This document shows positions 11,576 to 20,433 of a stretch of 35,176 bases of DNA, one piece after another (position 1 is the first letter of the stretch; the number at the start of each line of letters is the position of its first letter). A model generated the notes under the pieces. That model ran no database searches and was not told where the DNA came from. It saw only the letters and a list, made by a program, of their open reading frames with translations. A program made the translations under genes and the position numbers. Origin of the DNA: a virus; IMG/VR virus record IMGVR_UViG_3300007735_000657, positions 1 to 35,176 of that record; one strand, 5' to 3'.

Positions 11576-11646
11576 TGGAGATTAGTGTAACGGTAGCACA
11601 ACTGACTCTGACTCAGTTTGTCCTAGTTCGAATCTAGGATCTCCAA
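11576..11646 (+). tRNA. tRNA-Gln(CUG)
   Basis: Acceptor TGGAGAT/ATCTCCA, D arm with GGTAGC, anticodon arm ACTGA-CTCTGAC-TCAGT giving anticodon CUG (CAG codons), and T arm CCTAG-TTCGAAT-CTAGG. All four arms pair. CCA is not encoded beyond the discriminator. It starts right after the preceding tRNA-like element. Confidence 0.92.
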
Positions 11647-11649
11647 TAC

Positions 11650-11721
11650 GAGGATGTAACTCAATGGCAGAGTGTGACCCTTCCAAGGTCAATGTTGCGG
11701 GTTCAAGTCCCGTCATCCTCT
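11650..11721 (+). tRNA. tRNA-Gly(UCC)
   Basis: Acceptor GAGGATG/CATCCTC, D arm ACTC-AATGGCA-GAGT, anticodon arm TGACC-CTTCCAA-GGTCA giving anticodon UCC (GGA codons, common in this phage), T arm GCGGG-TTCAAGT-CCCGT. All arms pair. It ends 7 nt before the next coding gene. Confidence 0.93.
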
Positions 11722-13389: not shown

Positions 13390-13473
13390 GTAACAGGGAA
13401 CGACAAAGCACAAATCGTTCCGCCCTAACGGGAAAGCGAGGACTAGATCGCCAGCACATATGGTGCTGTAATT
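13390..13473 (+). ncRNA. Candidate structured small RNA (four hairpins)
   Basis: This 84-nt non-coding stretch sits between a coding gene and tRNA-Ile. It folds as GGAACGA/TCGTTCC (13397-13403 with 13415-13421), CCC/GGG with a TAAC loop (13423-13432), GCGA/TCGC (13436-13451) and CAGCAC/GTGCTG (13452-13468). It has its own promoter and no T-loop, so it is not a normal tRNA. T4 makes two stable non-tRNA RNAs (RNA C and D) in its tRNA region, a possible parallel. It could also be a tRNA leader processed away. Confidence 0.55.
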
Positions 13474-13546
13474 GGGTAGGTAGTTCAATCGGCAGAACCT
13501 TCCGCTTATAACGGCAGATGTGTGGGTTCGACCCCCACCCTACTCA
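13474..13546 (+). tRNA. tRNA-Ile(UAU)
   Basis: Acceptor GGGTAGG/CCTACTC (one G-U pair), D arm GTTC/GAAC, anticodon loop CTTATAA giving anticodon UAU (AUA codons), T arm GTGGG-TTCGACC-CCCAC. The anticodon stem has one mismatch (T-C). AUA is rare in many GC-balanced hosts but frequent in this AT-rich phage. Confidence 0.9.
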
Positions 13547-13560
13547 TTGGAGATATAAGT

Positions 13561-18016: not shown

Positions 18017-18892
18017 ATGTCATTTAGCGATTTTAAGAAGCGTTCGAAGTCCAGCATTGAAGATCTTACCAAGAAGATCGAAGACCTAAACAAGACTGCC
18101 GATTACAAGGATGATCGGTTCTGGAGGCCAGAAGTTGACAAGGCGGGTAACGGCTATGCCGTGATTCGTTTTCTTCCAGCCTGTGAAGGTGAAGATGTTC
18201 CTTGGGTCAAGGTTTACTCGCACGGCTTCCAAGGCAAGGGTGGCTGGCTGATCGACAACTGCCCAACCACGCTTGGTCAGAAGTGTCCGATCTGCGAAGC
18301 CAACAGCGAACTTTGGAACAGCGGTGTCGAAAAGGACAAGGACATTGCCCGTAACCGTAAGCGCAAGCTAACGTACATCAGCAACATCCTTGTTGTCAGC
18401 GATCCTTCAAACCCCCAGAACGAAGGTAAGGTATTCCTCTTCAAGTACGGTACGAAGATCTTCCAGAAGATTCAGGAGGCCATGCAGCCTCAGTTCAAGG
18501 ACGAGGAAGCCATCAACCCATTCGACTTCTGGAAGGGTGCAAACTTCAAGCTGAAGATTCGTAAGGTCGCTGGTTACACCAACTACGACAAGTCTGAGTT
18601 TGACGGTGCTGCTGAACTCTACAAGGGCGATGACGAGAAGCTTGAGAAGCTGTGGAAGACTCTGTACAAGCTTCAGGACTTTGTTGCTCCTGGTGAGTTC
18701 AAGTCATACGACGAACTCAAGAAGAAGCTCAACGATGTTCTCGGCGGTGACATTCGCAGTGTTGCCCCTGCCGCTAAGAGAGCGGAGGACGAGGACGAAG
18801 TGGCTGAGGCCGTTCCTGCTCGTAAGGCTCCCAAGCCTGACGAGGACGAAGACGCGCTTGAATACTTCAAGCGACTAGCTAAGGAAGATTAA
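18017..18892 (+). CDS. 32: Single-stranded DNA-binding protein gp32
   Basis: 291 residues, close to T4 gp32 (301). The N-terminal basic region (FKKRSKSSIEDLTKKIEDL) serves cooperative self-contact. The OB-fold core holds the zinc ligands His69, Cys82, Cys90 and Cys93 (YSHGF, NCPTT, QKCPIC). The C-terminus is acidic and flexible (AEDEDEVAEAVPARKAPKPD then DEDEDALEYF), the platform for replication partners. It coats ssDNA in replication, recombination and repair. Codon use is strongly GC-shifted with AAG and CTT/CTC, fitting very high expression. AAGGAG precedes the start, and a terminator follows the stop. Confidence 0.95.
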   Translation: MSFSDFKKRSKSSIEDLTKKIEDLNKTADYKDDRFWRPEVDKAGNGYAVIRFLPACEGEDVPWVKVYSHGFQGKGGWLIDNCPTTLGQKCPICEANSELWNSGVEKDKDIARNRKRKLTYISNILVVSDPSNPQNEGKVFLFKYGTKIFQKIQEAMQPQFKDEEAINPFDFWKGANFKLKIRKVAGYTNYDKSEFDGAAELYKGDDEKLEKLWKTLYKLQDFVAPGEFKSYDELKKKLNDVLGGDIRSVAPAAKRAEDEDEVAEAVPARKAPKPDEDEDALEYFKRLAKED

Positions 18893-18912: not shown

Positions 18913-19593
18913 TCACAAGACCCTCCAAATTGGAGGGTCTTTTATTGAACTAAGAAAATCTGTTAGATCATCTATATTTTCTCCTTGAGCAGAGAAAGGC
19001 TGATCGTTTGATGAAATTATTGGAGAACTATAACTTTTTTTAATATCAGTATCAAATGTTCTTTCATCTGTTACTTTTTGTTCTTCTAATTGTTTAATTC
19101 TTTGTTCTATTATTGTCTTTTCTATATCTGATAATTTTTCAGAACTTGATTGAATTGCCCTTAATTGCCCAAGTTCGGTAGTATCTTCTACCATTTCTTT
19201 TACAGCTTGTTTAGTTTCTGTAGTTGACTCTGGAATTGAATTGTCCGGAGATGATTCAAGAGTTTCTATTGGAAATTCATTATTTGATTCATTGCCAGTC
19301 ACTGTAGAAGTATTTGGAGTAGAAAGTTTAACAGATTCTGGTGGAGGAGAAGTCTCCATCATGTCTGATTCTTCTGCTATAGGTTTAGAATTATTATTTG
19401 AATCAGGAATAGAAGTTTCAATATTTGTAGAAGATGGATCTATTTGTATTGAATTATTAGATTCATTTTCGTCGGAAATTATTGATGAGTAATTTGATAC
19501 ATCCATGCTAGGATTTTTACCATCACCTATTTCTGTTTTAGCATTGGTTTGATTACTTTCATCAGTATCATCAAAAATTTCTTTATCAAGCAT
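18913..19593 (-). CDS. Low-complexity acidic Ser/Thr/Asn-rich protein
   Basis: 226 residues, mostly disordered: Asp/Glu/Ser/Asn/Thr-rich up to about residue 130 (SSTNIETSIPDSNNNSK and similar), then one helical coiled-coil segment (SEKLSDIEKTIIEQRIKQLE) and a short C-terminal motif (NIDDLTDFLSSIKDPPIWRVL split at the Asp). It lies directly downstream of gp51 with an 8-nt overlap and AAGGA upstream, so it belongs to the gp4/tube/gp26/gp51 unit. It could be a baseplate-assembly or tape-measure-binding factor. The family is not recognised. Its last codons double as a terminator stem. Confidence 0.6.
   Translation of the reverse strand: MLDKEIFDDTDESNQTNAKTEIGDGKNPSMDVSNYSSIISDENESNNSIQIDPSSTNIETSIPDSNNNSKPIAEESDMMETSPPPESVKLSTPNTSTVTGNESNNEFPIETLESSPDNSIPESTTETKQAVKEMVEDTTELGQLRAIQSSSEKLSDIEKTIIEQRIKQLEEQKVTDERTFDTDIKKSYSSPIISSNDQPFSAQGENIDDLTDFLSSIKDPPIWRVL
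18918..18943. terminator. Intrinsic terminator after gene 32
   Basis: AGACCCTCCA/TGGAGGGTCT (18918-18940), a 10-bp stem with an AAT loop, followed by a T-rich tract. It lies inside the last codons of the convergent reverse-strand gene, so both strands are constrained. Confidence 0.9.
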
Positions 19594-19759
19594 ATGAATC
19601 CTTTTGTTCTTCTAATTTATTTTTATATTGATTAAAGTAAACATCTCTCTCCCAAGGAAAAACATTTTCAACATCAGATATTGATATTACATTATTGGAT
19701 GAAAGAAAAAAATTCATTCTATAATATAAAACCAAATCTATATGATTTAAGCTAATGTA
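19586..19759 (-). CDS. 51: Baseplate hub assembly gp51, probably a -1 frameshift extension of gp26
   Basis: 57 codons in the -1 frame of gp26, read from the last T of the slippery run (19759) to TGA 19588-19586. It holds IDLVLYYRMNFFLSS, then FPWERDVYFNQYKNKLEEQK, which I recognise as the small gp51-type protein of environmental T4-like phages. There is no ATG, and no good GTG/TTG with a ribosome site, before the conserved LVLYYRM; the internal ATG would discard it. A -1 shift at T-TTT-TTT would give a gp26-gp51 fusion of about 282 residues. The alternative is an unusual start codon. Confidence 0.65.
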   Translation of the reverse strand, partial: YISLNHIDLVLYYRMNFFLSSNNVISISDVENVFPWERDVYFNQYKNKLEEQKDSYA

Positions 19760-20433
19760 AAAAAATTTAGTACGCCATCCAATCTGAGGGTTCTTTCTAT
19801 ATTATCGCTAGTAGTGTATTTGACGTTCGAATGGCATTTAGGAAGACTTAATACAAAATCTTTTATTTCATTATATTCTTTTTTTGTCAATGATGAAATA
19901 ATTTCATTCATATCAGATGGACTTAAATCATTAAAATTATAAACAGAATCATCTTTAGAAATTAAATCAATTGATGATTTAATCATATGATCCATATCAA
20001 AATTTCCATCTATTGATAAAATTTTTAGGACAGTAGGCTGTTTAAAGTTTATAGTATAATTATCAGATAATTTAATAGTAAAATCTTTACTTGATTTTCC
20101 TAATTCAAGTTCGGTAAGATTCAATGTAGTTTTTACTTTTTCTTGCGTTATAGGACAAGTAAAATTTGTTTTAACTACTTCTCCTATAGATTTAGCTCTA
20201 AGATTGCAGAATAAAAATTCTAAATCTTGAATGGTAATATCATCAATTGAAATATCAAAAAAACATTTTTGAATTAATTCTAGTACATTTTTTATAATCA
20301 ATAATGGATTTTTTTCCTCTTTTATCAATAAAAGATTTTTTTCATCAGATACTAAAAATGGTCTAAAATATACTTTTTCCTTTGAACTAGGAATTTGTAT
20401 TTCATACTTAGGATAAGATCTTTCAAATTTCAT
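19747..20433 (-). CDS. 26: Baseplate hub assembly protein gp26
   Basis: 228 residues (T4 gp26 is 208). The N-terminus YPKYEIQIPSSKEKVYFRPF followed by LVSDEKNLLLI is the signature of the T4 base-plate family (PF12322). FTCPITQEKV in the middle is a short conserved loop. In T4 it acts in assembly of the baseplate hub and is not a major part of the finished virion. The start follows an AAGGT ribosome site and overlaps the stop of the tail-tube-like gene by one base. Its last codons carry the slippery site that would connect it to gp51. Confidence 0.88.
   Translation of the reverse strand: MKFERSYPKYEIQIPSSKEKVYFRPFLVSDEKNLLLIKEEKNPLLIIKNVLELIQKCFFDISIDDITIQDLEFLFCNLRAKSIGEVVKTNFTCPITQEKVKTTLNLTELELGKSSKDFTIKLSDNYTINFKQPTVLKILSIDGNFDMDHMIKSSIDLISKDDSVYNFNDLSPSDMNEIISSLTKKEYNEIKDFVLSLPKCHSNVKYTTSDNIERTLRLDGVLNFFTLA
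19759..19765 (-). promoter_or_regulatory. Candidate -1 frameshift site (T TTT TTT)
   Basis: Minus-strand T7 read in the gp26 frame as AAT TTT TTT ACA, four codons before the gp26 stop. It is a perfect X-XXY-YYZ heptamer, preceded by AAA so that A-AAT-TTT also qualifies. Slipping back one base joins the frame of gp51. Confidence 0.6.

Follow-up and report, generated by a model that had tools for sequence, protein, structure and literature searches.

A closely similar described system is the G/GT pair of phage lambda (Xu, Hendrix & Duda 2004; PMC5009743), in which a short and a long tail assembly chaperone share one start, and the long form gains a -1 C-terminal extension through tandem slippage shortly before the short ORF ends; for function we use the model as summarized in PMC5009743. 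In T4, gp26 and gp51 have been listed as hub assembly chaperones (PMC3004832). The tail assembly chaperone (TAC) genes of T4-like phages were identified by Vladimirov, Gautam & Davidson (2022), whose work we cite as it is reported in PMC10885494 and PMC12846349. According to the former, frameshifting is replaced in some T4-like phages by two genes, a short one and a fused long one, and according to the latter, poly-T slippery signals are known in T4-like TAC-N genes. In the Vandenendeviridae and Andersonviridae (PMC12846349), TAC-N likewise has a poly-T site at its end, the -1 frame is invariably open and the C part has been misannotated as a separate gene.

Here we analyze a 35-kb virus fragment from IMG/VR (hereafter, the window), in which, judging from sequence comparison, gp26 and "gp51" are very probably one tail-assembly-chaperone gene decoded in two ways by a -1 slip. 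The window holds the same two protein families as the T4-like gp26 (TAC-N) and gp51 (TAC-NC) of Vladimirov et al. (2022), as far as that work is summarized in the later papers. T4 and related genera have the long form as a separate gene and a gp26 without an in-phase slippery site, whereas the window has one locus and a -1 slip. The window shares with lambda the layout described above but differs from it in sequence family (PF12322) and in its site, which is of the U UUU UUY type and not the G GGA AAG of lambda. With the Vandenendeviridae and Andersonviridae it shares all three traits named above, although those are other phage families and their motif is GTTTTT, against T TTT TTY here.

Results

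The gp26-gp51 junction in the window

The features of the locus are collected in Table 1. The match of gp26 to PF12322 reaches 158 bits (cut-off 24.5) and aligns residues 8-225. On the minus strand, its 3' end reads AAT TTT TTT ACA TTA GCT TAA in the zero frame, with a T run of exactly seven and three codons between the heptamer and the stop, and the coordinates and counts given in a preliminary description of this DNA, which proposed gp51 as a -1 extension of gp26, proved correct. As also stated there, gp51 lies exactly at -1 to gp26, its frame being open from stop to stop, from 19801 to 19586 (minus strand), and the length forecast for the product, about 282 residues, agrees with the sum of the two parts. 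Three features of a G/GT-type arrangement are present in the window, namely a shifted ORF that is open through the overlap, an in-phase heptamer before the stop and a second ORF without a start of its own.

Table 1. Coordinates of the features at the gp26-gp51 locus of the window.
Feature	Position	Strand	Basis
gp26 / TAC-N, zero frame, 228 aa	19747..20433	-	T4_baseplate PF12322 (Pfam E 2.7e-46); phrog_150 baseplate hub (PHROG E 1.6e-50)
Slippery heptamer T TTT TTT (zero frame AAT TTT TTT ACA)	19759..19765	-	sequence; in phase among relatives
gp26 zero-frame stop TAA, fourth codon past heptamer	19747..19749	-	sequence
gp51 / TAC-C, -1 frame from slip site, 57 aa + TGA	19586..19759	-	phrog_634 baseplate hub assembly catalyst, E 1e-14; -1 coding signature ahead of any ATG
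Predicted frameshift product TAC-NC, 282 aa (225 + 57)	19586..20433	-	read-through of the -1 slip; natural counterpart is T4-type gp51
Next gene after gp51, 226 aa, unknown, low complexity	18913..19593	-	ATG 19593-19591 overlaps the gp51 frame end

The lack of a credible gp51 start codon in the window was confirmed. Ahead of the ATG of LYYRM, which lies 17 codons in, the gp51 frame has one common start codon only, a TTG at codon 11, and no Shine-Dalgarno (SD) motif accompanies it. The missing SD is weak evidence alone, because an SD-like motif is found in only 13 of the 33 window genes. In the sister contigs L001-L010, even the LYYRM ATG of the window is missing.

Conservation of the slippery site and of the -1 phase

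We fetched 19 sister loci at 65-74% identity. All 18 that reach the junction read AAT TTT TTT AC[A/T] TTA NNT TAA with gp51 at -1, and in 10 of the 18 no ATG precedes MFPWERD. Moreover, gp51 lies at -1 in each of 16 annotated phages (Kyanoviridae, Straboviridae, Emdodecavirus, Menderavirus, Busanvirus and others), 15 of which carry T TTT TTY. Sister loci, annotated phages and a wide IMG/VR scan together gave 98 distinct T4-like junctions, and an in-phase T TTT TT[C/T/A] is present in 97 of them (72 T TTT TTC, 22 T TTT TTT and three T TTT TTA). The one exception, Vibrio phage Kuja (L031 1565-1605), reads AAC CTT TTT CAA TAA with the -1 frame still open, and may use another slip site. Past the slip, each of the 98 junctions has a -1 frame without stops over at least 55 codons, while 5' of it the frame is frequently closed at once; no relative was found to have a -1 frame interrupted by stops or an out-of-phase heptamer. 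Comparison bears out the slip site, its phase and its conservation, and beyond the T4-type group most of the T4-like phages examined carry the same signal.

An in-frame T TTT TT[T/C/A] occurs eight times in the 8953 codons of the 33 window genes, which puts the chance that any one gene carries such a site among its last ten codons at about 1%; recurrence of the same in-phase site in nearly every distinct relative removes chance as an explanation. One of the eight is a second in-frame T TTT TTT in gp26 itself, at codon 58 (TGT TTT TTT GAT, near 20262, minus strand). Sequencing error as the source of the seven-T run was considered and rejected, since independent contigs repeat the exact run. One gp26 relative, in a record labelled Streptococcus phage GXN1 (L038 1504-2253), has no recognizable gp51 at -1; this record holds only 40 annotated features in 176 kb, and its host label or sequence quality looks odd.

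Selection on codons and on the -1 frame

For statistics we used 38 representatives sharing less than 60% identity, and a stricter set of 20 at 45% identity. The residue ahead of the FF pair varies (N, S, D or T), whereas the third base of its codon is invariably T (background 63%, combined 10^-8.6 over the 38), and the first Phe is always TTT (background 66%, 10^-8.8); in the set of 20 the corresponding values are 10^-4.3 and 10^-5.5, and all of these overstate the strength of the signal, because the representatives share ancestry. FF pairs elsewhere in gp26 are written T TTT TTY in only 4 of 81 cases. In the window clade, between the gp26 stop and codon 17 of the -1 frame, 8 of 11 third positions are variable, against 1 of 11 second positions. 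Judged by this pattern, coding selection acts on the -1 frame of that clade even ahead of any ATG start.

Two-gene phages of the T4 type as a natural control

T4 gp51 is a protein of 249 aa encoded by a separate gene on the opposite strand to gp26. A profile (HMM) of the frameshift products aligns the T4-type gp51 proteins across the junction, LedFFrialshesLenyyktnF with LHSVFNLLINPDEVFSFYEINH; by this alignment, T4 gp51 is a natural gp26-gp51 fusion. T4-type gp26 retains FF, but as [A/G] TTC TTT in 6 of 6 loci (IMG/VR). At that place in gp26, an in-phase T TTT TT[C/T/A] is absent from all seven two-gene genera checked (Tequatrovirus, Krischvirus, Slopekvirus, Lazarusvirus, Pseudotevenvirus, Gualtarvirus and Muldoonvirus), as expected if a gene of its own for the long form removes the need for the site. 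PF12322 matches number one in the 35-kb window and one per record in the relatives (504 of 504). In one T4-type record (L127 2501-3246), the gp51 gene is split over two frames mid-gene near KFKNP, which is either a real frame change or a sequencing error.

The preliminary description knew of no gp26-gp51 fusion in T4-like phages. On this point it has to be amended: T4 gp51 itself is such a fusion, and the T4-like chaperone genes had been identified by Vladimirov, Gautam & Davidson (2022), as later papers report.

gp51 start codons and alternative readings

Among the traits whose conservation across T4-like phages the preliminary description proposed to test, the T run (97/98) and the -1 phase (98/98) held, while the absence of a gp51 start held only in part. 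Of the 38 representatives, 22 have no ATG, GTG or TTG within nine codons of the slip, and 15 have an ATG near the junction. These 15 are distant relatives that retain the slippery site, and their ATG is preceded by AGGA in two and by no SD-like motif in 13. Close relatives combining an ATG and ribosome site for gp51 with the loss of the slippery run were looked for, and no close relative without the run was found. Annotated gp51 starts lie about 50-75 nt late in HTVC008M, Melnitz-2, S-RSM4 and C48C1, and gp51 is not annotated in Ah1 and ACP17.

It could be argued that gp51 is translated on its own, either through termination-reinitiation or by initiation at a non-AUG codon (ATT, ATA or TTG) close to the gp26 stop, given the close spacing of the two frames, the ATG at or just past the gp26 stop in the 15 representatives, and the annotation of T4 gene 26, which includes a shorter second product, 26', presumably made from an internal AUU start. 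We consider this improbable, since most representatives (22 of 38) have no ATG, GTG or TTG near the slip, L011-L018 have TTT in place of the window's ATT at codon 4 and the TTG at codon 11 is not conserved. Additionally, it leaves the in-phase heptamer, the codon constraint and the homology to T4-type gp51 just past the slip unexplained. In the phages with an ATG just past the slip, however, a separate gp51 made by reinitiation may coexist with the frameshift product.

Slippage of RNA polymerase on the T run, giving mRNA with an extra U, would suit a seven-T run in an AT-rich gene, but it is very unlikely: the run is six T then C in 72 of the 98 distinct junctions and T TTT TTA in three, and six T is short for polymerase slippage, while both variants fit tandem tRNA slippage. 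A reading in which gp51 is decaying and the heptamer simply follows from an FF motif in AT-rich DNA, as an AT-rich genome (34% GC) and a short gp51 left unannotated in Ah1 and ACP17 might suggest, can practically be dismissed, since the -1 frame is always open and under coding selection, no out-of-phase heptamer was found among the relatives, T4-type gp26 keeps FF yet codes it TTC TTT in 6 of 6 loci, and codon choice at the site is far from background.

Stimulatory elements around the slip site

In support of ribosomal frameshifting, the RNA 3' of the slip folds better than shuffled sequences (mean z -2.0 vs -0.3), and the downstream stem-loop goes beyond synonymous recodings of gp51 in 23 of the 38 representatives at p<0.05 (Fisher 1e-19, again an overstatement given the shared ancestry). 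Some 10 nt ahead of the heptamer lies an SD-like element (mean -6.3 vs +0.2 kcal/mol background), a spacing known from dnaX-type -1 sites. With amino acids fixed, this signal shrank to a modest one (Fisher p 0.008), and we therefore claim it for only part of the family. Nine members of the window clade show no convincing stem-loop (p 0.04 to 0.64), and the window has no SD-like stimulator (p 0.78, amino acids fixed). On these sequence tests, the window clade seems to rely on the heptamer alone, and since its lineage lacks a clear stem-loop or SD-like element, slippage may be inefficient there.

Predicted structures and gene neighborhood

AlphaFold2 models of gp26 (pLDDT 89) and of T4-type gp51, the natural fusion (pLDDT 87), share the same order of elements, and gp51 adds three C-terminal helices. 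For residues 1-93 of gp26, the top solved structures after realignment were 3fgx (Z 8.3) and the HK97 TAC (2ob9; Z 6.2, 80 residues, rmsd 4.0), with the next matches for this region at Z 3.0 or below, and these values are suggestive of a TAC-like fold of the modeled N-terminal domain. The HK97 protein differs in that it is a 104-residue chain, while gp26 includes an additional beta-rich region, and the two showed no sequence similarity. A Foldseek search of the PDB with gp26 and T4-type gp51 gave no match below E 0.1, the TAC fold surfacing only on realignment; NCBIfam held no match for gp26 or gp51, a gp26 profile search of PDB sequences returned chance hits only, and Phage_TAC_5 (PF08890) had no match in the window.

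In HTVC008M and Cr30, the gene after next past gp51 is annotated as tape measure. In the window clade, gp51 is followed by the 226-aa protein and then by a convergent gp32. The gp32-like ssDNA-binding protein gene of the window (18017-18892, plus strand; phrog_224, E 2e-115) stands at about 49% GC, against about 25-30% in the surrounding region. A chimeric assembly, considered on account of this GC jump, was rejected, since sister contigs have the same convergent arrangement. The window also carries three tRNA genes, Gln(ctg), Gly(tcc) and Ile(tat), at 11576-11721 and 13473-13547 (plus strand). In the record of Acinetobacter phage Konradin, gp26 and gp51 are both annotated as tape measure protein assembly chaperones.

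Discussion

The comparison across T4-like phages strongly supports the initial proposal of a -1 extension of gp26 and of a G/GT-like pair; gp26 and gp51 are very probably a G/GT-type (TAC-N/TAC-NC) pair, a concept already known. What our analysis adds is a lineage without a plausible gp51 start, the breadth of conservation, the anatomy of the cassette and the two-gene control. In the mechanism we propose, most ribosomes would end at the TAA and release gp26 (TAC-N, 228 aa), while a smaller share, holding tRNA-Phe in both the P and the A site, would slip back by one base on U UUU UUU and continue in the -1 frame to yield the 282-aa gp26-gp51 fusion (TAC-NC). If the lambda G/GT model carries over, TAC-N would cover the tape-measure protein, with the helical C-terminal part of TAC-NC bringing in tail-tube protein. 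We infer the occurrence of slippage, its efficiency and the partners of both forms, whereas the coding selection acting on the -1 frame, the T4-type natural fusion and the absence of the site there emerge directly from the comparison.

As to how the two arrangements arose, we lean slightly towards a three-part -1 cassette (U UUU UUY, preceded at about 10 nt by an SD-like element and followed by a stem-loop) as the ancestral and prevalent means of making the T4-like long chaperone. The separate gp51 of T4 and related genera would then be a derived replacement, after which the slippery site decayed, and the AT-rich window lineage would get by with the heptamer alone and no gp51 start.

Many T4-like genomes, among them those of marine cyanophages and pelagiphages, have gp51 ("baseplate hub assembly catalyst") entered as a protein of its own, truncated or left out. 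Should gp51 prove to be the C-terminal end of a frameshift product, these entries would be in error and the long-standing puzzle of the role of gp51 would become a chaperone question. The clade would then also offer a natural comparison of frameshift decoding and gene duplication as ways of setting the chaperone ratio.
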